From: Glutinoglossum americanum
Lineage: Eukaryota > Ascomycota > Geoglossomycetes > Geoglossales > Geoglossaceae
NCBI GenBank assembly: GCA_020080175.1
Contig: JAGHQL010000010.1
Coordinates: 62,001-126,000, forward strand
Reading direction: 5' to 3'
DNA length: 64,000 nt
Of the stretch, positions 15,893 through 57,300 are shown one piece after another. Each line of letters begins with the position of its first letter. The first letter of the stretch is position 1. The notes below the pieces were generated by a model. It ran no database searches. It saw nothing but the letters and a program-made list of their open reading frames with translations, and was not told the DNA's origin. The translations under genes and the position numbers were made by a program.

Positions 15893-18800
15893 TTACTGGT
15901 GTTCATAGAAGTTCCGAGTCTGTTGCTGTTGCATGTACGTGGGCGAATGCTCACCCTCCGCTGGGGCAAAAGAAATGCCTCCCATCCCAGGGGCATAGTC
16001 AGGATTGATTCCCGTTCCACGCATATCAGGAGCAATCGATGGGTAAGAAGGAATTTGGTCCATAGTCGACGGGTAGATGTTTTGTCCATTGTAGGGGATA
16101 TCTGGGGAGGAATAGCCGCCCACAGGAAGTCCTACCGCCTGGCCAGGGATGGGCTCAAAGTCGGCATATGAGTGATTTGGTGATAGGCCTGTGTACGTGC
16201 CGGTGGTATCGGATGTCCCGTAATGCTGGAAAGTCGTGGCTGTAAAGTCACTGCCTGTATGGTCGGGATACGTAGTCATCGGATCGTGTACGGGAGACTG
16301 GCCGGTGTAGTGTGTTCCTTGTGGGGCGTAATTTGGTACTTGGGCTCCAGAGTTCGGATCGAAATACGAGCCCTGGCCCTCAAGTTGGGGATACGGGGGG
16401 CCGAGTAAACCTACAGGAGAGACGCTGCCCCGTATGGAGAATGGCATCGCGACGGGAGTTCCACCCCAGCTATGAGAATGGATAGGGGTCGTGGCTCGAA
16501 TAGGTTCTTGTTGTTCTATCGAACTGACAACAGGACCGGCCATGATGTTCTTCTGTTCCACAAGCGCAAGCACTGGTAAGCTGATTTGTTCCATGTGCCT
16601 TGCGAGGTGCACTGTCAATTTCTTCCAGCTACTGCAGATGTTCCCGCAAAACCTGCATGGTTCCTCTCGTGGCTGCTTATGGGTATCGTGATGACACTCC
16701 TCGACGAGTTGCCAAACCCTATCGATTTCTTCCTGATGAGGATCCACATCGATTACCCCATTTGCTGCCTGCCATTTACCAGTAGATGTCCCTGGGCTGA
16801 TATTGCTTCTGCCCTTCATCGCGGTAGCGGTCTTCATGGCGGCTTTTGTAGCCTTAACCTTTGGTTCCGGTCTCTTGTGTTCGCGAACGAGGTGCTGTAC
16901 GAAGTTATCTTTTCGATAGCAGGTGTGTGAACAATCTGGTAGATTACAGGTCCACCATTCGAGTTGCCTATGCCGTTCATTTTCGTGTCTTACCCAGTCT
17001 GCCTTCCGCTTGAAAGACTTGGGCTCGCTGCAGTTGTGAAACGTACACGTAAATGGTTGGACGTCCTCATGCACATGCTTCGTCCAGTCAGAAGGCTTTT
17101 GGAACTTCTTGACCTTAAAGCACAGCGGGCACTCAAACTCTGCTGGTAAGCGTTTGACGGGAGGCAATGGAACGCCTTGAGGGAATTGCGCTGCGGCAAC
17201 GGCACCTTCCCCAAAGCTAGATTCTTCCTCGGAATGACCTGACGATATCTGGAACCCGGCAAACGCGGCCTCCGGATCTCTGCTGCTGGCTTTTGGGGGC
17301 AAACTTTTTGCTTCTCCGCCAAGTGCGAAACAGAACTCGTTTGAACTACATTTCTGACTCTTGACTGCATTCATATGTTTCGTCCTGAAATCGACCAATT
17401 TTTTGTACCGCCTGACTTGCTCATGACTGATTCTATCAACGAGCGGTGGTGATAACCGCGGGTTTAGTTGCCTGACATGTGTCTGGAAGCCAGGGAGAGT
17501 TGGAATGATAGGATCGTGACGTATTTTCATGTCCATTGTGACCCCCTTGTCATCAATTAGTTCTTCTTCGCATTCATCATCGTCCTCGTCTTCGTTGTCT
17601 ATAGCACTGTGTATTTTGGCGTTATCTGCTCTCGCAGGAGATGCTAGGGTTGGCATGGGGGGTCCCCCGTACTGCGTCATGAGAATAGAAAGGCTAGACT
17701 TCCGGCCACTATCGCTTCGGCTCCTGTTCCTCTTCACGAACTGCTTTGCTTGCGCCCACGGGCCTGCTGAAGTAATTGAAGTGGCGCTCATGCTACCAGC
17801 ACCTCCTCCAATGACCGCTATTTGGCCGGCCATGGCAGCTACAGCGCCTCCCGTGTTGAGCTTCGGCTTCCCAAAACTTGAGACTCTCGCTGGGGGAACT
17901 GAGGCGGTACCGCTGGCTATGGAGTCTGCGTGTTCAGGCTTTTTGAAGGTTAGGTCTTTGTCGCCGGCCTTTCGCTTCAAATTACTGCCGCTTCTTCTGG
18001 GTATTAGCCTCTTGACGTCGGCCATATCGAGGAAATTTCCCCGCTGATCGCTCTTCTTCTTATCTTTGTCCTTGTCTTTCCCGAAGGAAAGTCGCTTTAG
18101 AAGAGTTAGAGGACCGCCCGTTTGGTCGATTTGGTCAATATCAGTCTCGCTGAGTCTACGACGAGTGCCCCAAGTAGCCACCCTTGACGCTGAGTCGTAG
18201 CTATCCGCTGCACGGCTAAACAGCATAATCGCTGCATTCGAATTTGCTGGCTGACACCGGGAACTTGAGGGCCCCGTCTTTTTGAATGATGGCGTGTCAC
18301 GCCAGGGTCGAGCCCGGCAAAATTGATGCGGAAGAGGTTCCTCGGGGTCAGAGAGTGTTGCCATGCTCAACTCTCTCTCTGCCTCCTCTAAGGCATTATT
18401 CGCATGGACAGAGGCTGGCGGCGATGTGTCGATCATGCTCGAATCCTCATCATCTACCAGTTCACTAGAATACTCTTCGCCATCATCTTCGCTGTCTTCG
18501 TTGACAAGAACACCAGGCCCAGGGATTCCTGCTCCATCTCCTGCAGGTGCTCCTAGCAAGTCTAGGTGGGAGCCCGGAACGTCGCCCATGCTCCTGGCCC
18601 TGCGCCTCCCAGATTTCTGTTTTCGCAGTACTTTAGTGCCTTGTGAAGGCGGCATACCCGCGACTCCACTTGCAGATTGACTTCTCTGCAACCAATCTGC
18701 AACTTCCGCGTTCCGCTCCGCCCTTTGCCGATCTATTTCCTGCTCCTTGAGATTAGGAATCTGATTGTCCTTGAGCTGATCTCTCATATCGGGGTTTAGC

Positions 18801-19939
18801 CCCGCTTGGCCAGTTTTCGGACTCGGTAGCCAAGACCCATCAATGGCACGAGCGTTGGGTAAATCCTGTGCTGGACTGGTATTAGAGTGAACCGGGTCAT
18901 CTGCCATCTCATCCTCTGATGATTCGGGTTGTGGAGCTAGATGGTAGGGATCCGCTCGAGTTCGCTTGCCCAACCCTCGCCCTAGAAAAGGCTCATCAGG
19001 AAGCGAGTCTTCTCCGCTGACATGTTCTACTTTCACAACCGGGCTCAGGAGATGTGCCGACGAAGGATGGGCGTCTGCAATGGATCCGTCGGTTCCGCCA
19101 TTTGAATTGATGTGGTTACCAGGGAATGATAGCTCGGTAATGGGTATTTGTAGAGCGGTGTGTAGTTTGCCCCTTTTTGGAGTCGACTTGGTACTGGTAA
19201 ATGGTGCAGGGCCTACAGAAAGATGCGTGTACTGCTCGTTTCTAGAGGGTGGACTTGGTGTGCGTATATTTGTAGGGCTCGACAGGTAAGGGGCGTCGCT
19301 TGGAGCGGTGGATGAGTTCTTGCGCTTCGAAGCGGAGCCGTTGCTAGCCAAGATTTCTGTCTGAAATGGCTGCATTTCAGTATCCCCACTTGAGTGTGGA
19401 AATTCTTCACCATCCATCGCTGGACTCAAGTCAACTTCGTCTCCGAGAAGATCATCGTCGAAACTTGGCGTTGTATGTTTGCTAATCCCACCGTATCCTT
19501 CAGCGGGCTCACCGAGGGCGCCCGTCGAAGGAGTGGTCTTGTTATGCGCGGACACAGACGCCGGAGAGAGGCTTGGGTTGGGAGGTGTAGAGGTAGGACG
19601 CATATAGTGACCCTGATTGACATTTGGCGAATAAATGCCGCTTTGCTGGTGATAAATTTGTGGGAAGGTAAATTGCATATGCGCGGAAGGGGACGAATTT
19701 CCTGGGTGCAGTGAGCCCTCGGTTGACCCGTTATAGACCGACATCGTTCTGCTCGTGGATGTAGACATGGTACTATGTGAATGCTGATCCGAGATGGGTA
19801 GAAAAGTGGAATCCGACGGTGGCTGTGGTATTCGCACCGAGTATTCCGTATTGGGGTATAATTCGTCGATGAGTGCTGGAGCAGGTAAGGGAGGAACAAA
19901 GTGATTCCCGTTGGCGGAGGATGAGCGAGGGAAGGTCAT
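15893..19939 (-). CDS. Large intronless C2H2 zinc-finger protein
   Basis: One uninterrupted frame of 1348 residues starting MTFPRSSSANG at 19939. About 920 N-terminal residues are Ser/Pro/Gly-rich with acidic patches (EDSEDDGEEYSSE, DNEDEDDDECEEE) and look disordered. The finger region lies around residues 925-1120: CPLCFKVKKFQKPSDWTKH, CTFHNC...FKRKADWVRHENERH, WWTCNLPDC with YRKDNFVQHLVREH, and CRFCGNICSSWKKLTVHLARH. The tail is Gly/Pro/Tyr/Gln-rich. The middle finger block follows the same plan as in the two neighbouring genes (finger, acidic-Trp-x-RH, HxQLxxWxC, RKDxFxxHL). It is expected to be a nuclear regulator. Having no intron sets it apart from its intron-containing neighbours. Confidence 0.88.
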   Translation of the reverse strand: MTFPRSSSANGNHFVPPLPAPALIDELYPNTEYSVRIPQPPSDSTFLPISDQHSHSTMSTSTSRTMSVYNGSTEGSLHPGNSSPSAHMQFTFPQIYHQQSGIYSPNVNQGHYMRPTSTPPNPSLSPASVSAHNKTTPSTGALGEPAEGYGGISKHTTPSFDDDLLGDEVDLSPAMDGEEFPHSSGDTEMQPFQTEILASNGSASKRKNSSTAPSDAPYLSSPTNIRTPSPPSRNEQYTHLSVGPAPFTSTKSTPKRGKLHTALQIPITELSFPGNHINSNGGTDGSIADAHPSSAHLLSPVVKVEHVSGEDSLPDEPFLGRGLGKRTRADPYHLAPQPESSEDEMADDPVHSNTSPAQDLPNARAIDGSWLPSPKTGQAGLNPDMRDQLKDNQIPNLKEQEIDRQRAERNAEVADWLQRSQSASGVAGMPPSQGTKVLRKQKSGRRRARSMGDVPGSHLDLLGAPAGDGAGIPGPGVLVNEDSEDDGEEYSSELVDDEDSSMIDTSPPASVHANNALEEAERELSMATLSDPEEPLPHQFCRARPWRDTPSFKKTGPSSSRCQPANSNAAIMLFSRAADSYDSASRVATWGTRRRLSETDIDQIDQTGGPLTLLKRLSFGKDKDKDKKKSDQRGNFLDMADVKRLIPRRSGSNLKRKAGDKDLTFKKPEHADSIASGTASVPPARVSSFGKPKLNTGGAVAAMAGQIAVIGGGAGSMSATSITSAGPWAQAKQFVKRNRSRSDSGRKSSLSILMTQYGGPPMPTLASPARADNAKIHSAIDNEDEDDDECEEELIDDKGVTMDMKIRHDPIIPTLPGFQTHVRQLNPRLSPPLVDRISHEQVRRYKKLVDFRTKHMNAVKSQKCSSNEFCFALGGEAKSLPPKASSRDPEAAFAGFQISSGHSEEESSFGEGAVAAAQFPQGVPLPPVKRLPAEFECPLCFKVKKFQKPSDWTKHVHEDVQPFTCTFHNCSEPKSFKRKADWVRHENERHRQLEWWTCNLPDCSHTCYRKDNFVQHLVREHKRPEPKVKATKAAMKTATAMKGRSNISPGTSTGKWQAANGVIDVDPHQEEIDRVWQLVEECHHDTHKQPREEPCRFCGNICSSWKKLTVHLARHMEQISLPVLALVEQKNIMAGPVVSSIEQQEPIRATTPIHSHSWGGTPVAMPFSIRGSVSPVGLLGPPYPQLEGQGSYFDPNSGAQVPNYAPQGTHYTGQSPVHDPMTTYPDHTGSDFTATTFQHYGTSDTTGTYTGLSPNHSYADFEPIPGQAVGLPVGGYSSPDIPYNGQNIYPSTMDQIPSYPSIAPDMRGTGINPDYAPGMGGISFAPAEGEHSPTYMQQQQTRNFYEHQ

Positions 19940-21697
19940 AATTTGATCGAACGGGCCTAAGATGGCGAGAGGGGTGGAGTGTCCTGTCTAGGCGCTTTGG
20001 AGGAAAATTACGGATCGATGTTGCTAGCTTTCGAACGACACAGAACGCATCATGGAAACTGCCAAATCAATCAAGAGGATAGGATAGCTGTTGAATCGAA
20101 AGTGCAGCTGTGGAGAACTTGTTTTGGTAGAAAGCTGCGGTGGAAAGATGAGATGTGAACAGGAGTGGAATCCGATGAAACGCCAGTGGGATAAATTGGG
20201 GCCGGGGCTGACAAACTAAAGGTATGAACCCTGCGCGCTACTGGATCGCATTCGATGGCGGTGCGCGGTTACATAGAGATATAAGGGAACCGTGAGCCTG
20301 GAACGTAGCAGCGGTGGCAAGTATTGGGAAGGAGCACGATGGAGATACGAGAGGCGATATGCAAGGACACGGAGAAAACGGGGATCTCTAGAGGTGTAAA
20401 AAGTACGGAGTACAGAAAGATTCAGAGACTGGGCGCTACGAACAATTGCGCAAGAGGGAGAGATTATCAACGGACACGGCGTTCTTCGCGGCTGACACAG
20501 ACACTTTAACAAGTCGGACTTGGGGGAGGGGGGAAGGGAAGGGGCAGCGGGTGCATGTAGAGTTAATGGGCTGCACTAGGTGTGCAGGTCCAGGCTGTGC
20601 CACCAAGTACACCAATACATTTCATCCCCAGTATCGGATACCGTTCGGTGGAACCAGCAAGCCGTAACCTTGCTCAATAGAAAAAAGCCTTGGGGCGCAA
20701 GTACAGAGGCTTGACCAAGGCAGATCCGGCTGTGCGGCCCATTCCCCATTCCCTCTACCTTTTCTTCTTCCTTCCCAGACGTCTCGAAGGATACCCAAAG
20801 TGGACTGCGCAGTCGCCCGCGCCTCAATCAACCCACCCTCTGCCCATGGAATCATTCACGGGGTGGAAACAACCTGCCAGCTCCGTGCAGGCGCAGTGCT
20901 GTGCATGGGCAGATGTACTCTGACTCTCCACCTCAGGTCAATCAACCTGCTTCCACATGGGATACTTGACGGTGCGATCTAAACGTCCATCACACTCGGC
21001 TTGCGTGCATAGGGCATGGAGGGTACACATTGCAGAGGCCAGATTGCGGCGATTGTAGCGATTGCAGCGACAGGCAAGCGATGCGACGTGATGCATCAGT
21101 TCCCTGTATGTACTGTGTATGTGTGTACCGTGCAATTTTGCGCTTCACCCACGCACGCCCAGTGGATAGTCTTGTATACCTGAGATAGGCGATGCGGAAT
21201 GCAGCGCTTTGGCTTTTGCTTCGGCCTTTTCTCTTTTGCTTATGCTTGTGCCACAGCCCCATTGCGCCTTACGAGACAGGGCTGAAATGTTCGCATCTCA
21301 TTCGCCGTCGCCCAACAGACTTATCGAACAAATGCGGTTTGCTCATATGTATCACTCTCATACCGTCCTTGGCGTCACATGTCGTCCCTAACCCGCGCTA
21401 TTCCTCGGTTGGTTTGTGCTTGAGGCACGGCGTGCCTTTTCCTGTGGTGGTCCAACGACACCAACAGGTGTGTCATGTAGGTTGGGCAATGGGATTCACA
21501 GATCTATCGCACGTCATTATGACTCTAGTCATCTTTAGCTTTGAATTTGCAATTTTGGTTGGAATGTTAAGAGTACAGAGAAGCCAGCCAACAGAAACCC
21601 GTGAAATGTCTCAACTAAAGTCCCAAGAGTACCCAAAGATCTTTATGAATGTACATGTACAAGAGCGCCGCTTATGCGCCACACGTTGGTCCCGGAA
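19940..21697. other. Intergenic region upstream of the third zinc-finger gene
   Basis: About 1.8 kb between the start of the gene at 19939 and the 3' end of the coiled-coil gene at 21698. Open frames here are short, overlap on both strands and lack splice support. No gene or RNA recognised. Confidence 0.6.
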
Positions 21698-24600
21698 CTA
21701 ATCCTGCGGAGACCTCGATCTCGACCGGCTTTCCCGATCCTCCCTCAACTTTCTCCGTACCTGATCTATCGAAGTGCGCCTGCTCGCGTAGGAACTCTGC
21801 TCGGGAATAAAAGGTGCGTCGGGGTGTGAGATGTTTGAAGACTTTGAGTTGATCTCGTGTTGGCGGGCGACTACGGGTGTTGCGTCAGAGTAGAGTGCGA
21901 GGCCGTTTAAGTACGCACAGCCATTGTCGGGTTCGTTGGCGTCTGTCTGGAACACCTCATGAACAGGCTCTCGGGCGATAATGGGCAACAGTCGAAGCAA
22001 CACTCTTCGAGAGCCAACATCTCCTGGCGGAGTTCCCTTGGGAAAGTCTTTCCCCTCGTAACTTTCGGCTGGCCATTCAACTTCTTCATCGTCCGTAACG
22101 TCCTCGGCCGCTGGCATGCGCGCGGAGATCATCTCTCTCTCGAGCCTTGCATACCTCCAGGTCTCTGCAGCCCGCTTAACAATTCTCGTCACGGCGATGG
22201 TGATGAGCTCTTTCCGTCTTGGGTCCGCAAATGGCTTTATTTGGCTTACAATCTCTTCCACAACCGCGCCTGCAGTTGCATTTGTTGCCTTCTTTGCGCT
22301 CGAAGCGGTGTAAGCCGCATAGAGGGTTTGCTGCCTCCACATGGCTTCTCTCCGGTGAGACTTCTGTCGTAGTTCATTCGACATGGCTTGGAACAGCGAG
22401 TCCGCCTTATCGTACCGGCGACCAAGGGAGAAAAGAAAGGGGCCGAAAACGCGATAGCAAAGTGTATTTGATATTATGTGAGTGACGTATGCGGCTCGTA
22501 TTGCTCGTGATGAATCTGTGTTGCCGATGAAAGAAGGGAGGTTCGAGGGAATAGTTTTCAGAACTTCAGTAGGTGGTGCAATAGGTAGATTCTGGAAATG
22601 CTCATGGGATAGATCAATGATTTCCTTTGCGAGAATCCTGAATGAGTCTAGACTGGAGCCACCCATTCAAATTTTCAGTTAGCTAATGTGTTTTATGAAT
22701 TCTTGATTTGAAGATACATTATTTCCCATTTCCCGCAATACAGCGAATATGACCACACGCGACGATATTTTACTTACTAGAACGGGTCCCCTTTGCTCTT
22801 GATTTCCTCCCACTCGCCAAATTTGTCCACCATCTTCTGAAGCCTGGTCTTCTCTGCTCCTAAATTCTCGTGGACCCCTTTAAGCTCTGTCATTGCTTCA
22901 CCAAACCTCGCTTTATCAGCATCCCACCCCTTCCTAAGTACATCCTTCTCTCTCTCAAGAGCCCCTCTCTCCTCATCCGCCCTCCGAATCATTTCTGCTT
23001 TGACTGCATCCCAAGCAGCCTGCATCTCATCCTTCTCCTTCTGGTGCTGCTCCATCATAGCGTTGCGCTCCTCCTCAAATCGGTTATTCATTCCTGTGCG
23101 CTCCTCGTCCCAGCCCCTGACTAGCTCTTCGCGCTCTTTAGCCCAATCCTCGCGTTCCTTTGCCACCGCATCTTCGAGCTCTCTGTGCCGAGCGTTTAGC
23201 CTCTCCTCTAGCTCCGCCTGTAAACGAGCGAATTCCGCTTCCATGTCTTGTTTCTGCTGGGCGAAGACATTATTCATCGAATCCTTCTCCCTTTCAAAGC
23301 TTTCCATGATGGCGTTCTTCTCACTCTCAAACGCTGCTTCCTGCTCTTTCCGTCTCTCCTCGAAAGCCTCGGTCATTAGTCTCTTCTCTTCCTCCATGGC
23401 AGAAGTCATGGCCTCCTTTTCAGCAGCGAAGGCATCTTCTATGCCCTTCTTCTCAGTTTCAAATGTGTCCTCCATGGCCTTCTTCTCCGTTTCGTATCTG
23501 TCTTCCCTATCTTGCCTCTCAGCCGCAAAAGTTTCACTCATGGATGTCTTCTCTGCTTCAAAGTTTCCAACCATAGTCTCTTTCTCGGCAACGAAAGCCT
23601 CTCCCATGCTCGTTTTCTCGGCACAGAAAGCTTCTTCCATGCTTGCCTTCTCACCGTCAAAGGCCTTTCCCATGCTCGCCTTCTCTTCTGCATGATTTTC
23701 ACTCATGGTCGTCTTCTCCGATTCAAAGGTCTCTTCCATGTTCGACTTCTCCGCTTCAAAGGTCTCTTCCATGGACTTCTTCTGGGCTGCAAACCCTTCT
23801 TCCATTGTGGTCTTCTCCGCTGCGAATTCTTCTTCCATGGCCGCTTTCTCTGCGTCAAATTTTTCTCCCATATCCTTCTTTTCGGCCTCGAAGGTATCTC
23901 CCATCTCCTTCCTCTCTTGTTCAAAGTTTTCTCCTAAAACGCGTTTCTCCTCGGCGAAGGCTTCCTCCATAGCGATCTTCTGTTGCCTAAAGCTCTCCTC
24001 CATTTTACTCTTCTCCTCGTCAAATGCGGCTTTCGATTCCTCTTTGTACTTCTCAAACGCATTGTAAAAATTTTGCCTTTCTTCAGCGAATTTTTTCTCC
24101 AACTCCTCTTTCTCTAATTCTAAAGCGCTTTTAGCTTGCTCTAGCTCTTCCTTTGCCTTTTGGGTGGTGTCTAGGCTTTCCGTGATCTCCTTGTGTTTTT
24201 CTTCAACATTTCCAATCTCAAGCCTGAGTTTATTGCTCTCCGCGGAGTGCTTGTTGCTCTGGATATCGAGTTGCTTTGTGAGGTGGTCGATATGTTGTTC
24301 CTTCTGTCTTAGCGCTTCATTTTGCTGCATTTCCACCTTCCTGAGGAGCGCCTCTCTCTCTTGAAGCTGATGGTTGGTCTTTTTGTAATGGTTGAGCATC
24401 CTATTCAAGTCAGGGATACCCGCTGAGATGCTGGCCATAGTCCTCATCGTGCGTTGAAGTAGGTCACCAACGTCATCCTCTCCCATGCCCGCCATGCCCG
24501 CCATCATGGGATCGCCTTTTCTCTTCCCTTCCCCGCCTCCCGGGTTGCCGAAGAATTCGCCTCTTCCATGGTAATCATCATAGCCAGTACCCGGAGATTC

Positions 24601-25845
24601 CTGGGAGAGACTCGGTCTTGAGCGCCGCGAGTTGCTAGAATCTTGACGGTGAAACTGATTGCGTATTGGAGTCAAGGGAAATGGGGGGGCAAAGTTCTGA
24701 AACCCCCCATGGTATGGGGGGCCAAAGTCGTGTGGCTGCCGGTGCGTAAGCACATCGTTCCCGGTGTGGTGAGGCATAGGATAATACGGCACTGCTGTGC
24801 CGGGTGGAGGGAAGAAAGGCCCTGGAGCTGGGTATCCTGGGGGAGGAGAAGAGGTTGGATTCGGATACTGGGTCGCGCCCTGGTAGTGAGGCTGAGGTGA
24901 CCCCGGCTGTTGGTATTGGGCAGGAGGCGACCCAGGCAGGTAGTAAGGAGGGGTGTATGGGTCTGCGTACCCCCGATTAATCGGAGATGCAAGAGGTAGA
25001 CCGGGTGACCGTCCGGGCGACCGTACGGGTGACCGCGTGTCCGGCGTTAGGGCTCTGACAGACTTCGGAGAAAAGTAATTCTTCGCCGTTGCGACAATGG
25101 CGTCTTCGCCTCCCGAAGAATCTTCCTGGTCACTGTTAATTTCCTTTGTAGAATCTTCTTCTTGATCTCCCGGATTCGATGCCGGTGCTGGATTTGCCGA
25201 GAACCGCGGAGCTGGGGATTGAATGTCGAGAGGCGCCGCAGTTACGGGAGATGGTTGGTAGATATCTGTAACGCTGAGACTCGGTGAATTGGGTAGAGAA
25301 GCTGGAAGGGCTGGGAGATCTGAAATTACGAAATCGCTATGACTAGGGTCGGGGGTATCGGGACTGGGATCGTGAGAATCTGCCCGCCTAGGGCTAGGAT
25401 CGAGAGTGTCGGATTCCTCACTATGATCGTGAGGGTCTGTCTGCTCGGGGCTAGAATCGAGGGTATCGGATTCCTCGGGGATTAGATTGTGAGTTTCAGT
25501 TTCTTCAAGAGTAGGGTCATGTGTATCGAATTCCTCAGGTTCAGAATTGTAAGTATCAAGTTCCTCAGGTTCAGGATCGCAAGTGTCGGGTTGCCGGGGA
25601 CTGTGGTCTTCTAGAACAAGTTCTTTCACAGCGCATTCGTCAACAGGCAGCTCATCAGGAGTCGTTTGGCCGAGAGAAGATTCGTCAGGGGTATCGTCGA
25701 AAACAATTTCTTCGTCGAGAACAGCTTCGTCCACTAAAGAATCGTCGGCAACGGGAGTATGGTTTGGGCTTTGTGGTGGTGTTTGATCCTGATTCTTGGG
25801 GTTCTTCCTCGCCTGTTTGTTGGCTTTCTTTTTCCCTTTTCCCAT
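21698..25845 (-). CDS. Giant hendecad-repeat coiled-coil protein with fungal C-terminal domain
   Basis: Two exons, 25845-22778 and 22652-21698, give 1340 residues. The 125-bp intron (GTAAGT, AGCTAAC branch) links two long open stretches that would otherwise look like separate genes. Start MGKGKKKANKQ is a basic N terminus. Residues 82-170 are a decapeptide repeat (for example EPEEFDTHDP); 170-440 are Pro/Tyr-rich and disordered; 478-587 form heptad coiled coil; 588-1008 are consecutive 11-residue units of the type AEKTSMGEAFV. Residues 1023-1230 are a helical, basic C-terminal region, followed by a Ser/Arg-rich end (RESRSRSRSPQD). The C-terminal region resembles uncharacterised fungal proteins I recall, without an assigned function. 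The long rod suggests a scaffold or tether. No membrane segment is visible. Confidence 0.85.
22824..24084 (-). repeat. 33-bp/11-residue coding repeat (hendecad coiled coil)
   Basis: Within the gene at 21698-25845, about 26 well-preserved 11-residue units and about 12 more diverged ones follow without insertions. The commonest form is xEKxxMxExFx with Met or Leu at position 6 and Phe at position 10. DNA copies have diverged, so this is an old protein-level repeat rather than a recent minisatellite. Confidence 0.85.
25336..25602 (-). repeat. 30-bp/10-residue acidic coding repeat
   Basis: Nine units of about ten residues (for example EPEEFDTHDP, IPEESDTLDS, SPRRADSHDP) near the N terminus of the coiled-coil protein. 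Each carries an acidic-Asp-Thr-x-Asp core. One unit is nine residues long. Confidence 0.75.
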
Positions 25846-27273
25846 GGTTGTCTAATTTCTTTCCTCGTGCTATATACCTCTCAGCAGGACGTGGTATGAC
25901 GATAGATGTTGTTTGTGGATTGATCGCTTGCGGATTTCACAGGAAAAACCCAACTTGAACCAGTTGCGTGGCAGTGAGAGTCTGCAGTTTACCTGCTAAG
26001 CACGATATCTTGCATGTGGTGTAGAGGATGTTGATTTCGTTTGCTCTCTTGGGAATTGAAGAAACAATCTCTGGATAGTGGGAGGTGAACACATAGTTAT
26101 GCGTAGCCGTCCATTGGAAGCTAAAAGACCGCCAAAGTTGACAACAGAACATATCGGGCAACGCGAGCCATATGTGTCCCAATCAGAAACGGCGGGCATT
26201 TTATGAGTCAGTTGAACAGAGATATAGAGACGCCCACGCTGATCTAATTTTGAAAATTCGGAGGCTGGCAGAGTGGGTGCTGGAAACAAATGTCAAACTT
26301 GCACTTGCTCGCTTCAGTGGTGGTTTGGTCGAACATGACCACCCACCGTGACGTGGAGGGAGTCGGATGGAATGGATGCTTGACGCGCCAGAAAGGACAG
26401 AGCGCGGTATTGAAAAATATTGGTTCGCTTGGAAGCAATAACAATCCAATTCATGCGAGTGCAGACGAACTACATAGGATTGGGCATCAGGCGTATAGCT
26501 GGTTGGAACTTGAGAGAGGGTCCGAGAGACACCGACAAAGATCGACCTGACCGCAATGACTGACTGACCGATACACTTTACTTTCTTTGGAGTGGCGCTG
26601 GAAGCTGCTGAGAGCTGCCGGGAAACACCATGCTCACTGGCTCTCCCCCAGAGACGTGGCGGAGCCCCAACGAGTCTTCGAGTTCCTGGGGAAACGCCCC
26701 GACTGCCTTCTTTTTCTTTGTTCGTCTTGCCTGCCATCGTCCGGATTCAGTCCCAAGCATGGAGGACACAACATGGATGTGTCAAATTCAGCCAGGGTTG
26801 ATGCGAACGAGTCCACCTGCAGACGTGGCTTCCCGGAACACGCGACTCGCTGCACGCTGTGCTGTCTCCAAACGGCCCGCTTCTCTGCATCATGAAGGCT
26901 CTACCATGTACCAAGTAGCTGTTCCCTAAAGATAAGAGAGGCCCCCAGACCGAGAGAATTGTGATGATGAGGATGCTATCCGTGCACCTCCGCACTGTAA
27001 TAGCCTTGTTGTTCGTCGGCCGAGGCGATGGGGTTCAATTACAGTACTGTAATAGCGGTGAATGCTCTATAAAAGTATCAGGCACGTGATAGGTTTGAAG
27101 TGACGGCATTCTCCATGCCTTTTTCCGATTGGTGTATGGTTCGACTCAGGCTTTTTTCCCCTTTTCCCGCAGGATAGTAGTCACCAAAGCTAGAGCCAAA
27201 GCCACTCTGTTCTACACTACACATGCCATGACTAATCAAGATATAACATTGAAACTACATCAACTATGAAATA
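25846..27273. other. Intergenic region
   Basis: About 1.4 kb between the coiled-coil gene start (25845) and the STT3 3' end (27274). No supportable gene. A plus-strand TATAAAAG-like string at about 27069 and a GGTTCGACTC string at about 27138 occur, but no gene follows the first and the second has no matching tRNA fold. Confidence 0.6.
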
Positions 27274-30001
27274 CTACTCGACCCGTAAGGCTTTTGCCGC
27301 TCTCCGCTTCGAGGTGGATTCCTTCTTCTTGCTCCCCTTTTCAAATGACATGGCGCTGGCATGATCTCTGCCCACGTTGTCGAGATCTTTCACCTTGTAA
27401 ATCCTGATGATCCAGTTCTCGCTCGTGAAGGCTTCTTCGAGTGTATTTAGCCGCGGTCCCTCAGCCGGTAATTTGGAGTTGCGCACACGGTCCCTCGCTT
27501 GACCAGGCGGAAATAGGGAGTTGTAATTGTAATAGGACATTTTATACCTTTAGGAAATGTCTTAGCCTATGTCACAGTGTGGCAAACAGTACAAGTTTAA
27601 TGAAGAAAGTGAACTCACATCAAACTGTTTCTCATTGTTGGAGTTGCCTCGTCATCGACGCGATACTCTCCCCTTGCAGTAAAAAAGTCTCTCTCTTTGA
27701 CCTCGTCGGGCCACACACCCTCTGCAATCCGAACCATCCACAAGAATTTGTTGATGTCGTCACCCGAATAGCCCAACACGCCCCCAAACACAACAAGGAC
27801 GTAGTCAACATCATGTTGTCTGAGGATTGGATAGCTAACCTCCTCTCGCGAGCTCATTGCTTTGCCAACCGTGGCGATGTGTGTGTTATTCCATGTATTG
27901 TTGTCAACAAGAGTAGCTCGGTCAGCCATGCCTCCAATTTGGTAGCCATAGTCCCACCACGACATGATTTTGGCGTCGTTAGGCGTATTCTGACGAAGCC
28001 ATTGATAAGCCTCTCGGTAATCATCGATAATATGCTGGCTTCCGTCAGGGAGTCTGCTGGCAAGAACAACCGAGGGCGAAGAGTAGGCGTTCGAGGTTAC
28101 CCAAGTGCAGTGGAGAACGAATAGTAGAAGGTAGGTAGAAATGGCGCCAGCAATTGAGAGCTTCGACATCGAAGAGTAGATTCCAACTAGTGGATCTCGG
28201 GTCGATCGAAGGGAGTCTGAGGCGGCTGAAGAGCTAGGCTTCTTTTGTGGGGCAGAGACGGTGCTGGAGCTAGCAGAATCGGCTCTAGTACCATCGTTTA
28301 AATACGCTTCCGCAGACGGAGAATCAATCAACAAGTAAGTATCTAGAATATGTGATAACGCAAGTGCAGCTGCGACGCATACCACTGGTGTCAGTGTTAA
28401 CATCAGACGGACCATGACTCCGGCGAAATAACTGGCCAGGATGCTATAAATAACCACGAAGACATGTTCGTCCTTAAGGGTACGGAAACATAGATATACG
28501 CCCGCTGGAAACAACCATATTAGGAAGTTGAGGTCGAAGAAAAAGGCAGGCCAGGCGGTCGGCTGGTGCTCAGAAACCGAAGCTATGATAGGTATGTGGA
28601 TCTTAGCGTAGCCAGTGTCCCAGAGAGAATAAAACCGTCCTGACCACGGAGCGATCACACCAGCAACTGTGAGGAGGATGAGAATCCCGACCGAAGCGAG
28701 GAAGATGGCGACAATTAAACTTTGTAGAAGTGTCTGAAATTGCTTGCTTGGAACCTGCTGGCGGATGAACTCGACAAATGCAACAATTTGAAGGAGACCA
28801 AATACACCTATGAAGGCAAACCAATTAACAACTTTCCCGGCCAATGCTGGGCACAACCAAATACCAGTCACTCACCTAATGGAGACATGTGTTCGCTAGT
28901 ACTTATTGGCAAAAACCCAACGAAAGGGATTTGCATGCTTGCCAAGGTCCCCAATGCGTACCAGGTGGTATAGCTGACATAGAGTCTCGGGCTATACCTG
29001 CCCATTGCGATGAGCACAAATGCATGCAATGGAATCAAGTTTGTAATAAAGACGTATCCACCCCAGGCTGACACCATGTAGAAATAGAACAGAGCCGTCA
29101 ACGCACCCCAAAATGCTGAACCCAGTTTCAGCGCCTTAATCCAGAGGTAAAAGGTGAATACGAGTAGAAATATTGCAATAGCCTCGTTATCATAACTTCC
29201 AGCGACAGACCGGGAGATGTAGCCCGGGGTAATTCCCATGAAGGCTGCAGCGAGGAGGCCAGCTGATGGGGAAGGAGATAACTCGGACGTAAGTAGGTAA
29301 GTCGCTAAGGCTGTAAGGCCAGAAAATGCGGGTGCGAGAAGCACACAAATATTTCTAATGTCTACTGGCATTGATAGGAGACGGAGAACTTTGTAAATGA
29401 CTCCGCTGGTGACCATGAGACCAGGATAAAGTGTGCCCCCAGTAACACGGCCAAGGGGGTGCCATGTGCCTATAAAGCCAAACATATTAACATACTAACA
29501 TATCTGATTCAGGAAAAAGTAACCCTCGAATAGCAGCAACAAAGAGGAACCTCTCAATGCGAATAGCACTGATTACATAGTCAAAAGGAGCTAGGGGGAA
29601 ACTTACGGTCATCAAACCAGTCCCAAAAGCTGTAGAAGCCATGCTGAACAAGATATTTTGTTGCTCTAAAATTGAACCAGGGATCAACTTCGTGACGAAG
29701 GACGCACGTTAGCAACACTGCAAAATCCCAGGGATGAGTATGTCAAGTTGTGGGAGAATTGACTAACATTCATGAATAATACTTTCAAACCCTACATCAG
29801 TCTCCAATTAGCACACGATCACTTCTGAAAATTAATATGCAATACGCGTTAAGGGTCATTTGCAGACGCACTTATTACACTGAATAACCGGCTAGCCACC
29901 GCGGCAGCAGCAATCGTACAAAGAATGACAAGTCGAAGGAGACCTCTAGTATTTCGACCGGTAGTGCCCTGTAGGAAAGGGCCAACTGCAGAGTCGGCCA
30001 T
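27274..30001 (-). CDS. STT3: Oligosaccharyltransferase catalytic subunit STT3
   Basis: STT3 transfers the lipid-linked glycan to Asn in N-x-S/T sequons in the ER lumen. Six exons (30001-29872, 29791-29768, 29687-29607, 29469-28876, 28807-27619, 27547-27274) give 763 residues, the expected size, and all phases close. Hallmarks seen: HEFDPWFN in the first lumenal loop, [10 protein letters not shown], the [10 protein letters not shown] loop and the WWDYGYQI catalytic motif followed by [11 protein letters not shown]. About a dozen hydrophobic segments precede the soluble C-terminal domain. The start reads [16 protein letters not shown]. Exon 2 is only 24 bp, and exon 6 supplies the [10 protein letters not shown] junction and the lysine-rich tail. 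The gene is divergent from the CSN8 gene with a 170-bp shared upstream region. Confidence 0.97.
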
Positions 30002-43666: not shown

Positions 43667-44467
43667 ATGTCCAATCCTCCCTCCCAAATCGCCGTCCACT
43701 CCCTCCCCGGTACGTCCACAATCCCCAGAAAAAAGAAAGAAGAAACCCTAGTTTGAGCCGACAACTCTAACATCCTCAATTCAGACCTGAAAAACACAAC
43801 CGACGACGCACTGCCAAACTACCTCGCCTCCCTAAAATTCAAACAATCCCACCGCCTGACCGACGTCCGGCTCGCTCTCTCCTTCGCTGCCTTTGCTACC
43901 GCCGCCGTCACGTTCGTGCTAGACTATAAGTTCGGCTTCGAGGCCCAGAAGACTTTCACCACCGTCGCTGTCTGCGTATATTTCTTCCTGAACACAGCGC
44001 TCACATACTGGATCTGGGGGGTTGAGCGGGGGAAAGTATACGAGGGCACTGCGCCCAATGGAACAAAGGTCCATATCTCCCCTCACTCCGGGGCCTGGAA
44101 GTTTGTCCTGACGAAATTATGCCAGCTCTCCCTAGCTTCATATACAGAAAAGCATTCCCCCATCTACCGCCTCCGCGTCCATACCCAGAAACCTGGGTCG
44201 TCAGACGTGTATACCTTCCACATATCAGCACCATTCTCGACGTGGTTCAGTGCCGATAGCCGCGGGATGGGCGAGCTTGTTTCTAAGCCGCTCCAACAGT
44301 GGTTGGTGAATGAAGTCCCGCTGATTGCCGAGGTAGATACCGCGAAGGGATCGGGGGCTACGGGGGAGAGCGCAGGGGCTTTAAAAGCGAAGGATTCGGG
44401 ATCGGGGACTGGAACAGCAGTAGCTACTCCGTCTCAGGGGACGAGAAATAAGTCAAGGAGAAAGTAG
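43667..44467 (+). CDS. SPC2: Signal peptidase complex subunit 2
   Basis: Two exons (43667-43709, 43785-44467) give 241 residues. SPC2 is a non-catalytic membrane subunit of the ER signal peptidase that supports docking at the translocon. Seen: a short N-terminal cytosolic part with KQSHRLTDVRLALSFAAF, two membrane helices near residues 44-61 and 73-91, then a soluble part with HISPHSGAWKF and FHISAPFSTWFSADSRGMGE. The Ser/Thr/Lys-rich end (RNKSRRK) looks disordered. The intron has GTACGT and a CAG acceptor. Exon 1 encodes only MSNPPSQIAVHSLP. Confidence 0.93.
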
Positions 44468-44885: not shown

Positions 44886-46437
44886 CTACTCATGCTTCAT
44901 GCGTTTGAGGGAGCTGCGACCACCCGGCAGAGCAGACGCGAATGAACTTGTCTTGATACACGGCGCATCAGGAGATTCTTGGTCCTCAGTGGCGTCCCAA
45001 TATCTGACGTCTCTATCAATAACTCGCCCACATGTCCATTCTCGCTCGTGGTCGTCCTTGAATTTCTTGCCATGAACTGTTCGGCAATGGTGGTTAAAAT
45101 CGTCCATGTCGTAAAAGAGGTCGGTCTCGCAGGTTGCGCAGACAAGTGCGACATATTGGCCATCTGAGCGCAATCTGATGATGTTCTGAAGATCCTCGAT
45201 GGTCTTGAAAGCCACCGGGGAATCCTGGGATTTTTGTTGATCCTCGGCAGAGTTCCAATCGCTGGAGTCTTTCTCAACAACTCTCCCGCAGGCCATATCT
45301 CGCTCATCGTCGTCCTCGTATTCCTTACCATGAGCAGTTCGGCAGTGTTCGTTAAAATGCGCTAGGTTGGAAAAACGATCAGCCTTACAGTCTGTGCAGA
45401 CAAGCACGATATATTGGCCATCTGAACGTATCCTAGTGATGTTCTGAAGGTCCTGAAGCCCCGCATTAGGGTCGATCACCGGCGGCCATCGTCTACGTTT
45501 GAATTTTCCTTGGTCCCCAGCATCTGGTAACTGACCCAGGGTCGGGTGGCTCACAAGTTCTTCAACGCAAGGCATGTCGAACTTTCTGAGGAATGTTGCC
45601 TGATCAACGATCCTCCCATATATGGGTAATAATTCACAGTCCCTGGACGTAAAATCGCGGTAACGCGCAAAAGTGTTTGTGAGTCCATCTATACTCGGGG
45701 AGTAGGTTAGGAAATGAGTCCTTGAGAGAAGTAGAACGTTAAAAGTACCCACCCTCATTGATGATAGGGGGGTATGGAGGTGGTGGCGAGATCCATTCTT
45801 CATCCATCCTCTGGGCATCACCCTTGCGCATGTGACTCCTATCGCTGGAAAAATTCCTAAGGTATTCCATTCCGGGTATCACACGGAAGCTCCGTGGAGC
45901 TTCACGGATACGGTATGTACTGAGGCTCCGGGCCATGGGATCGGAACCAGCATTGTAAAAGGTCATAGCAACGTAGATAGCAAATGGAATAGCGGACCCC
46001 CGGGTCTCAGCAAGGGCAGAGTCAAGGTCGAACACGACTACGAACGGCTGCGGGCCATTGCAGATACGGCTCACGAGGATAACATGGTAGTCCTACCGGT
46101 CCAGCGCGATCAGTACGCTTCTTGATATACGACAGGCTGGGCATTTCTACCCAGTATACAGGAGCATTCCTGTCACTAGCACTCCTCTGGCAGAAGAACG
46201 GGACGTAGTCGGTCGTCTTGCCTGAGATGAAAACGACGGTGCTATTGACTGCTTGCTGCGTCGATAAACAGTCTCGGATTAGGCGATAAATGTTTTCCTC
46301 GCAATAGCTAGTTTAGAGGTTGGGACATTAGCAGGTGCAGGGCCGAGAGACGCAGAGAGACGCAGAGAGACGCAGAGTGACTCGAAATACTTTCTGGTAT
46401 AGTACAACGGCTCGACCTTAGTCACAAACTCCTCCAT
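44886..46437 (-). CDS. NTAQ1: NTAQ1-type protein N-terminal glutamine amidohydrolase with duplicated C2H2-like tail
   Basis: Four exons (46437-46391, 46307-46151, 46092-45753, 45688-44886) give 448 residues. NTAQ1 deamidates N-terminal Gln to Glu, feeding substrates into the Arg/N-degron pathway. The core (1-215) shows YYTRNYCEENIYRL with the catalytic Cys at 18, a VFIS strand, W-DYHVILV with the catalytic His at 71, VVFDLDSALA with the catalytic Asp at 90 or 92, and FRVIPGMEYLRNFSSDRSHM then PPPPYPPI. The splice at 46150/46093 is needed to create the WDYH motif. Residues 216-448 are an extension absent from the roughly 205-residue human enzyme: two copies (about 259-333 and 344-418) of a unit with RSDGQY, Cx2C, a histidine pair in HCRTxHGK and CGRV. 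This looks like a divergent C2H2 finger. Fungal homologues should be checked for the same tail. Confidence 0.88.
44930..45445 (-). repeat. Tandem duplication of a 255-bp coding module
   Basis: The two C2H2-like modules of the NTAQ1-type protein lie 85 residues (255 bp) apart. They share most residues, including LQNI.R.RSDGQY and HCRT.HGK. Nucleotide similarity is still visible, pointing to an internal duplication of moderate age. Confidence 0.8.
46344..46379. repeat. 10-bp tandem repeat in intron 1 of the NTAQ1-type gene
   Basis: About three copies of GAGAGACGCA/AGAGACGCAG inside the 83-bp first intron, giving a pyrimidine-rich tract on the transcribed strand. Confidence 0.75.
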
Positions 46438-47171: not shown

Positions 47172-48748
47172 ATGGCGAAACGTCGCAAGCCAACGGCTCC
47201 CCCGGCCAGCAACTCGTCCACGTCCAATAACACCACCCTATCAGCTCGCCGTCGCACTGAACTTCCACGCGATCCCCCTCCCGCCGTGAGCAACGGCACT
47301 CCCCTAACGCCGAAACAGATAAATGCGGGTCCGCATCTCGAAAATGCAGAGTCGGCGAAACAACTCAATGGTAGTTTCGATGGGCATTCTGCGCTAGCAA
47401 TTGCTGGCGGGGTCGTGCAGAGCACCGTCCCCGCATGGATCCAGACCTGTGTGATGGCGGGGTTAATTTTTGGAGGCTGCTGCTCGAATGTATGTCAGTA
47501 TCATCTCGCGAGCGCACCTGGGAATCCGAGAGCCAGTGGTAACTTGTTCTGGCTAACCAACCGACACATAGGTCTTCGCTTTGGAAGCCATAGTAAAGTG
47601 AGTCTCGAGCCCTTCCTCCGCCTGTCGGGCTTCCTCAACTAAACTAATAGTTTCCAGAGACGAACCAAGCAGCGGTCAGTCCCTACTTCCCTACTCTCCT
47701 TAGGGCGTCTTTCCGACTGACTCGAACCCGCCCTTCAGGCATCCTTATAACCTTCATGCAATTTATATTGGTCGCGCTCCATGGCTACTACACTCATTTT
47801 TCCCGAAATAACCCACCATTCTTCCTAATCCCTAACCGCGTCCCCTTGATCCGCTGGATGACGAACATCATCCTTTTCTTCTCCGTCAATGTCCTCAACA
47901 ACTACGCCTTTAGCTTCAACATTTCTGTCCCCGTCCACATTATTCTACGGTCTGGCGGGAGCATCACCACGATGCTTGTTGGATTTGCGTGGGGGAAGAG
48001 CTACTCGCGCATGCACGTTATAAGCGTTGCTCTGCTAACTATCGGCGTTATCATCAGCGCTGTAGGGGACTCGAAAAAATCAGTAAGTGTCCTCTATGGT
48101 CATAGTCATACCCGCCTATAACTAAGACCCCACCAGTCGTCGACTACGCAGCCCACTTCCCTGACCACCTTTCTCACCGGCTTGCTAATACTTTTCGTCG
48201 CCCAAGCCCTCTCTGCAATCATGGGGCTCTACATTCAGGCCACTTATGAAGCCTACGGTTCGCATTGGCGCGAGAACCTCTTTTACTCCCACTTCCTCTC
48301 GCTCCCCCTATTCATCCCCTTTTTCCCCAAAATGCTCACCCAACTTCGTCTGCTCGCCGCCTCCCCCCCTCTTCCACTCATCCCCAACTCCCTATTTACC
48401 CACCTCCCAGCAAACCTCTCCGCGCCAATCCAGAAATTTAGCAGCATTACAGTACCCAAGCACCTCCTAAGTCTCCTTCTAAACTCCTTGACGCAATTCG
48501 CATGCATCCGCGGAGTCAACCTCCTTGCCTCTCGCACGTCGGCACTTACCGTCACCATCGTCCTAAATATCAGGAAACTGGCCTCGCTCCTACTATCTAT
48601 CAGGCTATTCGGCAATCAACTAAACCCAGGCGTGTTGACCGGCGCCATAGTGGTTTTTACAGCGGGAGGCATGTATGCATGGGAATCGCAGCGACTGGCC
48701 AGCCAGTCAAAGGCAAGGGCAAGGGCAAGAATGAGCAAGACCGTCTGA
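47172..48748 (+). CDS. UDP-N-acetylglucosamine transporter (Yea4/SLC35B4 type)
   Basis: Five exons (47172-47489, 47572-47597, 47658-47674, 47739-48082, 48137-48748) give 438 residues. Yea4-type proteins carry UDP-GlcNAc into ER or Golgi for chitin and glycan synthesis. The first 75 residues are a disordered Ser/Thr/Pro-rich extension. Then about nine or ten membrane helices follow, with family signatures MAGLIFGGCCSNVFALEAIV, LITFMQFILVALHGY, VNVLNNYAFSFNISVPVHII and LRSGGSITTMLVGF, and near the end LTVTIVLNIRKLASLLLSIR. Exon 3 is a 17-bp micro-exon supplying KDEPSS. The C terminus is basic (KARARARMSK). Substrate choice among UDP-sugars cannot be read from sequence. Confidence 0.88.
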
Positions 48749-54378: not shown

Positions 54379-57300
54379 TCAGTCCTCATCCGGCTCGTCC
54401 ATTCTAAGCCATCTTGCTCGGCAATCTACCGCCTCCTTCCTTACGTGTCGCTTTGGGTCATCGAGTGCAATGATTAGACTCCTTATGACTTGCTGTTTAA
54501 ACGGAAGCAAGGTTTCATTCTTGATCGCGCCAGGTAGCAGGCGGAGACAGTGGAGAGCAGATTGGCGTACGCGCTTACGTTGAGGTTAGCTTAATTTGTA
54601 CGAATAGGGAAGGTGTTGGTTTATTACCGGTGGGTTGCCACCTGTGCTGATATTTGCTGCTCTTAACAGCCGAGCAATCACACTTGAGACGTGAGATGCT
54701 ATTGCCTGGGGGCTCTCAGATACAGTTACACTTAATGTGTCAATAGTGGCGGCTTTGACATCCGGGTCATCTAGGTCGAGTGACTGTAGCAGAAGCGGAA
54801 GGAGTGTATCGAGGCTCGGCGTGATTGCTACAGAGGGAACATGACGGAGTATGTTCGATAATGCGACGAGGTAGTTTGGTTTTACCGCTGCACTTGCCGC
54901 TTGAAAGCCGTCTGCGATTTTGGGGAGACAATAGGTAAAAAGCCGCTGTTTGTGTAATAAACGGATGACCGCATAATTCGATTTGGAGAGGAGTTCATCA
55001 TCAGCCAGTAGAATTGCGAAAGCACGGGCAGTCTGTCGGCCATGTTTAGAGTCTTTAAGGTAGTCTAGAAGGAATGAAGTATAGTCAGTTGATGTGGGTG
55101 ATGTACGGAGAAGTAGGGCCTTGTTAAGCCAAAAGAGGACGCGAAGGCCGCCGTTTGTGAGGTCTTCTGGTGAGTTCTCGGGACCCGTGAGTTTCTTGAG
55201 GACATCAGCAGGGCCAGACTGGTCGTATACTGGCCACTTGTTGACTAGTAGGGAGATCATTCGAAGGATGGCAAGACGTAAAGACGCAGCATTCTCATGC
55301 GATGCGATATACATGAGATTTTCGAGGAATGGAGATTCACTCCAAGGTAGAGATATCTGCAAATAATTAGTGTGGTTTGCTTGGATAACTCTATCTAGAC
55401 TTAGCCTACCTCTCGCCGAATGCCCGCCAGTAGATAGGAAGATAGGATTACAGTTCGCTTCTGCTCGAGGGAAGCATCTGCTGCCAGAGAGTTGAGCGGA
55501 TCCTCTTGAGGAGAGCCATAAAGGTTGAAAATTTCAGACACCATTGATTCCTGTCGACCCGCGTCGAGAGATCGGACAATAAGATTGGCAAGACGCCCCA
55601 TAACTTCCAGGACGCCTTCATCGTTTAGGGCAGTGGTATTCCCAATCCCTTGTAAGGGATGGGTGGCCTTCCGTATTAGGCCTGAGACTAAGCGTTCGTA
55701 ATAAACCTGGAGGTTTGGGTCGTCCTCTAATAACCGGAGGCTGAGGACGTAGTGTAGAGTTGAAAGGATGGCCTTCGGATATGCAGGGGACGAGTTATTC
55801 TGAAGCACAACATCGAGCTTGTTCAACAATCTCCGCATTAGCACTTCGAATATTTCTCTCTCAACGCCTAATTTCGCGAGTCCTTCCAAGGTGCTAACGT
55901 AATTGATTGCGCCGTCTATATCCGAATCTGGCAGTTTCGCCATAAATGCGGGGATTGTGATATCCATAATGAGACTCGACTTAATTTTCGATATTCCGAG
56001 AAGAGCTTGGACAGCCTCCTCTCTCAAGTCGACCCTTCCGTCTAGGCCCTCTTCTAGAATGATCTCGTCAAAATACTGAACGACCATGCCTATCTCGTTA
56101 TCTGCTAGAAACCTCCGGAGCTTTGTTAGCCGAAGCAGGCCCCTAAGAGCAACAATTCGAAAGGACGTCTCTTCTTTAGCTGTGCCCATAAGTGCTTGGC
56201 AAAAAATCTCGAACAACTTATCCCTAAATGCATCTAGGGGGTTATTTTCTATGGGGTAACCTTCCATAGAACACCAGAGCCCATAAACGGTCAATGCAGA
56301 CTCGAATAGCTGTCCCAAGACTTCCAAAAGTGCCCTTTGCTTGCCAATACCATCCGCATCCTGGTAGAGGGTGAGCAGCGGGGCCATGACAGCTTTAATA
56401 GTCGAAGCAAATGCCACCGGAGAAGCAGTAGCTAATGACCCGAGCACCTGTCCTGCAGGCCGTGCTTGTTTTTGCTGGGGTTCACGCAAGCGCTCGTTGC
56501 ACTCTGTTGTTATTGGTCGTAGGAACCTAGCCAAAGGCGACTGAGGTGCCGCTGAAGTCAACCCAAATGACAACTTCACTGCAATTGCGCGTATACCGAT
56601 AAGGGTCTCGGTGGCCAGATCTTCATCCTGAGCATTGAAGACTTCAAACTTTAAAGAATCCCAAAGCTGAGTCGAGTGCACGGATATAGTAGTTGGACCG
56701 TAATTGGATGCGCATGCAGCGATGGTTTGGAGGACGTCTTTCTGATCTTTATTAGTCCCGTACGTCGTTGAGGGAGGAGAACATCCTTACCTTGACGCTC
56801 GGAGAGGTGGAGTCAAGTTTGTCAATCAGTGCGGGAAATGCATGGCCAGCAAAGTGGTGAGAAGCTGCGATGCAGTCCCTCAGACGCGCTTTGAGATCTT
56901 GTGCAGTGATGCCGTAGGTGTCCCCTGGGGGAGGTTTAAATGTGATCGGGAAATAGCAGAACACCGCATCAAACAAAGTCTGAGAGCTCGTCAGTTGGAC
57001 ACCCTAGGAATGTACAAGCCCAGCTATTGTTACCTCAGTATATTTCACGATGTCCCATTCCACAATCACGACTCTTAACACGGAAAACACAATCATTAAA
57101 TTCCTTGGATCTTTCTCGCCGATGACAAGGTCGGTGACGCCAACCACAAAATCGCCCCGCATGCCCTTAAGAGCTACTCAGGTTAGCTCTAGATGATAGG
57201 AGGGCGAACTCGGGAGGCTAACCGTCCCTTTGATCAGACATTATTGCGTCTAGAAGCTTTAGTACTACAAATCTCGTTCCCTGAGGGTGTCGTTGAAGAT

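Follow-up and report, generated by a model that had tools for sequence, protein, structure and literature searches.

Within the 64-kb stretch of Glutinoglossum americanum DNA analysed here (the window), a four-exon gene on the minus strand (46437-44886, exons reconstructed from the sequence) encodes 448 amino acids, in which an amidase core of the NTAQ1 family is followed by two C2H2-like units. To judge from our searches, the enzyme family is a known one but its domains have not been described in this arrangement. Literature searches on the enzyme, its partners and such a fusion showed no paper on an NTAQ1-zinc-finger fusion among the entries and abstract beginnings listed, which in two of the searches were 20 of 14,053 and 20 of 69 papers. 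The reading we favor, and regard as probable, is that the gene yields one polypeptide, an active amidase whose protein-docking tandem zinc tail fixes its partner or compartment. For the gene product we infer a transcript, catalysis, zinc binding, a docking role and a nuclear or chromatin destination.

Amidase core and tail in one reading frame

The Nt-Gln amidase core occupies residues 1-217 (45582..46437 on the minus strand, introns included). In a Pfam scan PF09764 matches residues 13-217 with an E of 3.5e-40 and 138 bits (cut-off 27), and the match runs over positions 1-183 of the 184 in the profile, which bears out the proposal of the initial annotation that the phased exons give an intact NTAQ1 core. 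The best solved matches in a phmmer search are NTAQ1 chains (3c9q, 1.2e-16; 4w79, 1.3e-16) and NTAQ1 accounts for 15 of the 17 rows; two antibody chains among the rows (E about 0.9) were discarded. Cys18, His71 and Asp90 align with Cys28, His81 and Asp97, given as the triad of human NTAQ1 in PMC4214742, so the Cys-His-Asp triad that had been claimed for the protein is present, and we infer that the gene product is a catalytically competent Nt-Gln amidohydrolase. With NTAQ1 (PF09764; 4W79, 3C9Q) it shares the whole core profile, the triad and the WDYHV and SDRSHM motifs. Unlike the solved NTAQ1 proteins (15 sequences listed, 202-205 aa), which consist of the core only, it carries 231 extra residues with two C2H2-like units. 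When the genome (25.77 Mb in 317 contigs) was searched with PF09764, the two rows reported corresponded to exons 2 and 3 of the present gene, and there was no further locus.

The frame opens with an ATG at 46437 and closes with a stop codon at 44886-44888 on the minus strand, and the coordinates first assigned to the gene are exact. Exon 1 (46391..46437) carries the start codon and is followed by a GT donor at 46390. The gene model and the NTAQ1 alignment together place the catalytic Cys18 (YCEEN) in exon 2 (46151..46307) and His71 (DYHV) and Asp90 (DLDS) in exon 3 (45753..46092), and exon 4 (44886..45688) joins about the last 35 residues of the core to the entire tail and the stop codon in a single open frame, all four exons being read from the minus strand. 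The three introns (46390-46308, 83 nt; 46150-46093, 58 nt; 45752-45689, 64 nt) are all GT-AG, and on inspection of the sequence a branch-like CTRAY, which is used as a branch-point consensus, precedes every acceptor (GCTAATG, TACTGATC and CCTAACCT). Intron 1 also contains, by eye, a short tandem repeat in which a unit of 10 bases occurs about three times (46344-46379 of the window). The neighbors are Pfam matches on the plus strand to signal peptidase SPC25 (43757-44464) and to the UAA transporter family (47651-48118). The same window holds an MMS19-like coding stretch (55401-56786), an STT3-like coding stretch (27615-28871) and two minus-strand open frames (15893-19987, 1364 codons; 22777-25851, 1024 codons) that match no Pfam family at E 0.001.

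As the gene model is drawn from sequence, it could be argued that two genes have been merged, one for an amidase that ends with the core and another for the fingers, or that an alternative 3′ end is used. We consider this highly improbable, as about the last 35 core residues lie upstream of the tail in exon 4, in the same stop-free frame. These residues improve the profile match: if exon 4 is left out, the core reaches 131.4 bits and profile position 149, and adding the start of exon 4 brings it to 139.9 bits and position 183 of 184. From the end of the core the frame then stays open, with no stop, through the tail to 44886. A separate tail gene is unlikely because the C-terminal stretch of the core and the entire tail both lie in exon 4 in one open frame, which supports the continuous core-to-tail frame of the initial annotation and disfavors the separate tail gene that would have refuted it. 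Scored for codon usage, the core, the linker and both units give positive values in frame and negative ones in the other five frames. For its training, seven long stop-to-stop ORFs from other parts of the window were used. The score is soft, with a Pfam match in just 2 of the 6 training ORFs scanned, and over short stretches it is noisy, intron 1 giving +0.224 in one frame. A scan of the locus for bacterial-type promoters and terminators is uninformative here. Fusion of core and tail is the straightforward reading of the sequence, and the alternative would require an undetected intron or a polyadenylation site within the gene.

Two C2H2-like units in the tail

The tail that follows the core is 231 residues long, close to the roughly 230 first estimated, and all of its parts are read from the minus strand. 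It starts with a linker (residues 218-258; 45459..45581) in which a basic cluster, KFKRRR (45489-45506), may be NLS-like, continues with unit 1 (residues 259-344; 45201..45458) and unit 2 (residues 345-419; 44976..45200), and finishes with a basic C-terminal end of net charge +3 (residues 420-448; 44889..44975). Between the units, 40 of 75 residues are identical, as are 163 of 225 nt. Two tandem copies had been proposed and are found, but the period of 85 residues proposed for them is not, as the unit starts at 259 and 345 give 86. Both units contain the arrangement C-X2-C-X13-H-X4-H together with a CGRV box, so that the Cx2C, HCRTxHGK and CGRV elements originally described occur in each, and both conform to CX2-4C...HX3-5H with its hydrophobic core positions. 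The ligands of finger 1 would be C279, C282, H296 and H301 (45330..45398, minus strand; pattern and structure models) and those of finger 2 C365, C368, H382 and H387 (45072..45140, minus strand; pattern and structure model). The C2H2 pattern used is loose, was composed post hoc and, compared with the usual consensus, allows an additional residue between the second Cys and the aromatic; in the six frames of the 64-kb window it has two matches, which are the two units. Residue shuffles of exon 4 (265 residues) gave at least one match in 6 of 20000 and two matches in 0 of 20000, and only the single-match figure is a fair estimate because the units are duplicates of each other.

Structure models place these residues at the expected positions with low confidence. 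When AF2 was given unit 1 with unit 2 as a second row, the model (pLDDT 56 on average and, taken by block, 65-74 across the finger) had a strand at 18-23, a short strand at 30-31 and a helix at 34-45, with C23/C26 and H40/H45 (unit numbering) positioned as in a C2H2 finger. A single-sequence model of exon 4 (mean pLDDT 42) has a strand and a helix at matching places in both units. Among 29 Foldseek matches the top 14 are zinc-finger entries (12 Kaiso, ZNF512 and AFV1p06) with a best E of 0.16, and none of the 29 reaches E 0.001. For the zinc site expected in the initial annotation, the low-confidence model gives Cys and His positions that fit C2H2, but no structural match is significant. Like a classical C2H2 finger such as those of Kaiso, the units have CX2C, HX4H and an aromatic/hydrophobic core, and a beta-beta-alpha fold is predicted for them at low confidence. 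Unlike the classical finger, they have the extra residue before the aromatic, a Cys that is conserved behind the first His and an added CGRV, their copies lie far apart, and they have no significant profile match.

Searched against Pfam and NCBIfam, the tail has no family above cut-off. Profile rows below threshold were dropped, among them the ZNF451 fifth finger model (E 3.1; 8.1 bits, cut-off 27), a methionine sulfoxide reductase model, DUF7836, SusF_SusE, Fin, DUF7573 and DUF629. Searching PDB with a profile of the three fingers gave SnoK (E 0.0012, best single stretch 0.16, with a local HCRTVH) and methionine sulfoxide reductase (E 0.53), both judged to be chance matches. On the models and the pattern, the tail appears to carry two tandem C2H2-type zinc modules, for which zinc binding is predicted.

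A tail of this kind could also be a lineage-specific leftover of domain shuffling, translated with no selected role behind an active and ordinary core. The degree of identity between the repeats would fit such a leftover: neutral simulations reached an amino-acid identity of at least 40 of 75 in 135 of 1000 runs, and in 27, 53 and 83 of 400 in a second set, which carried the same number of changes as the real units. The low confidence of the structure models points the same way, as does a conservation unsupported by relatives in the searched set, where the finger and core searches matched 22, 50, 12 and 1 pattern stretches in the non-fungal viral_contigs and genome_contigs. Among these, no relative of the finger or of the core was confirmed, and no relative of the fusion turned up in another species, which is uninformative on fungal conservation. 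As the identity of the units fits neutral drift, the evidence for constraint lies in the codon ratio, the retained Cys and His residues and the comparison with a second finger described below. Between unit 1 and unit 2 (NG86) dN is 0.27 and dS 0.78, giving a dN/dS of 0.34, and a ratio as low was obtained in 0, 2 and 11 of 400 neutral simulations at kappa 1, 2 and 4, respectively. All six conserved Cys/His residues were kept in 4, 2 and 2 of 400 at the same values. The four ligands and two further Cys, by comparison, are retained in both units and in the protein with the second finger, and the frame is open all through. Together these comparisons suggest moderate constraint on the repeat units and make a leftover tail unlikely.

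The initial annotation had also considered contact of the tail with nucleic acid, and recruitment of the amidase to DNA or RNA by tandem zinc fingers would account for the C2H2 signature and for the best Foldseek rows, DNA-bound Kaiso fingers of which none is significant, as well as for the KFKRRR cluster and the basic C-terminal end. Against this, the whole units are acidic (net -7 and -8, pI 4.74 and 4.79), but the acidity lies in the flanks and the finger core of unit 1 alone has a net charge of 0, so that nucleic-acid contact is weakly disfavored on this ground. DNA-binding zinc-finger arrays typically have short linkers, with which the 86-residue period of the tail disagrees. Recruitment to DNA or RNA seems to us very unlikely, and we retain docking to protein as the preferred role of the tail.

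A related finger on a second contig

A genome search reported one other finger, on contig C57 (107066-107248; 48% over 61 residues), in a 765-aa protein frame that contains no second copy (L003 424-2721). Nothing in Pfam or NCBIfam matches this protein, and its single PDB row (E 1.4) was judged to be noise. The finger is identical to units 1 and 2 at 27 of 51 and 24 of 51 amino acids, and in both comparisons just 19 of 51 third codon positions are the same, with the synonymous distance not computable. Like the tail units it has RSDGQY, LVCxxC, HCRxxHxK and CGxV, and the four ligands and two further Cys are common to both units and the C57 protein. By sequence, the tail modules and the C57 finger are one family, whose similarity is probably old and maintained at the protein level, the duplication within the tail being the younger event. 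The two proteins differ in build, as the C57 protein is long, has one finger and lacks an amidase, whereas the amidase tail has two copies set in more acidic units; the net charge of the C57 finger stretch is -2.

The finger of the 765-aa protein may be an Ahc1-like C2H2 finger, as in the ADA acetyltransferase complex, and we treat the name Ahc1 for this protein as a lead. It would connect the tail to chromatin, the contact raised in the initial annotation, in an indirect way, through the finger that the tail has in common with this putatively Ahc1-like protein. A nuclear complex as the destination of the amidase is suggested only by this tentative link and the NLS-like cluster. A putative zinc finger is attributed to Ahc1 in PMC9127870, and PMC6468242 describes the protein as required for the integrity of the yeast ADA complex, but a statement in PMC9676040 has it confined to S. 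cerevisiae.

N-degron context of the amidase

If the amidase is docked as we propose, the tail would act as an element that tethers the enzyme to a particular partner or compartment, proteins starting with Gln at that place would be converted by the amidase to proteins starting with Glu, and these would enter the UBR1 branch. Profile searches of the genome found a UBR1-like frame with a UBR box and a ClpS domain, and there is a second UBR-box protein; contact of the tail with a ubiquitin ligase, as raised in the initial annotation, would be conjecture. Yeast Nta1 catalyzes the same reaction on Nt-Gln with a nitrilase fold unrelated to that of NTAQ1. A query with yeast Nta1 matched two pieces on contig C21 (2.3e-12 and 5.0e-5) and another locus on C275 (2.6e-5). 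The C21 pieces belong to a separate Nta1-like, nitrilase-type N-terminal amidase gene (L009 874-2116), and a translated C21 piece has Nta1p as its first match, before other nitrilases. The organism thus seems to have both Nta1 and NTAQ1; a search for the NTAN1 family gave no match.

ATE1 would carry Nt-Glu onward to UBR1. It was not found in the 317-contig assembly, in which there was no ATE_C candidate and no match to yeast ATE1, and the one ATE_N row (E 0.438) was under the cut-off and belonged to a protein unlike ATE1 by eye. The approach with yeast queries did detect Nta1; the ATE1 search had no fungal control, and the assembly may have gaps; 5.8S rRNA was also not found. ATE1 may have been lost, be too divergent or be missing from the assembly, despite the presence of UBR1 and two kinds of Nt-amidase.

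Taken at face value, the missing ATE1 (by ATE_C, ATE_N and yeast ATE1), the Nta1-like gene and the finger in common with a putatively Ahc1-like protein would all agree with an NTAQ1 protein that works outside the Arg/N-degron route, as a scaffold or a differently targeted enzyme in a chromatin complex. We regard this as highly improbable, as the core and its catalytic triad are intact and the absence of ATE1 is a negative from an assembly in which 5.8S rRNA is missing too. In Aspergillus oryzae, moreover, reporters starting with Asp, Asn, Glu and Gln are all described as UbrA-dependent (PMC12542663), with the Glu and Gln reporters reduced to only about half compared with Met. In that fungus, at least, the route is therefore completed.

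A docking tail that is part of the amidase itself would point to Nt-Gln deamidation that can be confined to a place or a partner, and two unrelated Nt-amidases, seemingly both in this genome, make a division of labor testable. A bolder extension, that in a fungal branch NTAQ1 has become a chromatin- or complex-tethered Nt-Gln deamidase through tandem Ahc1-type modules, apart from a general Nta1, is in our judgment quite unlikely. If this tethered NTAQ1 is real, it would mean Nt-Gln deamidation at defined nuclear sites, possibly without arginylation.
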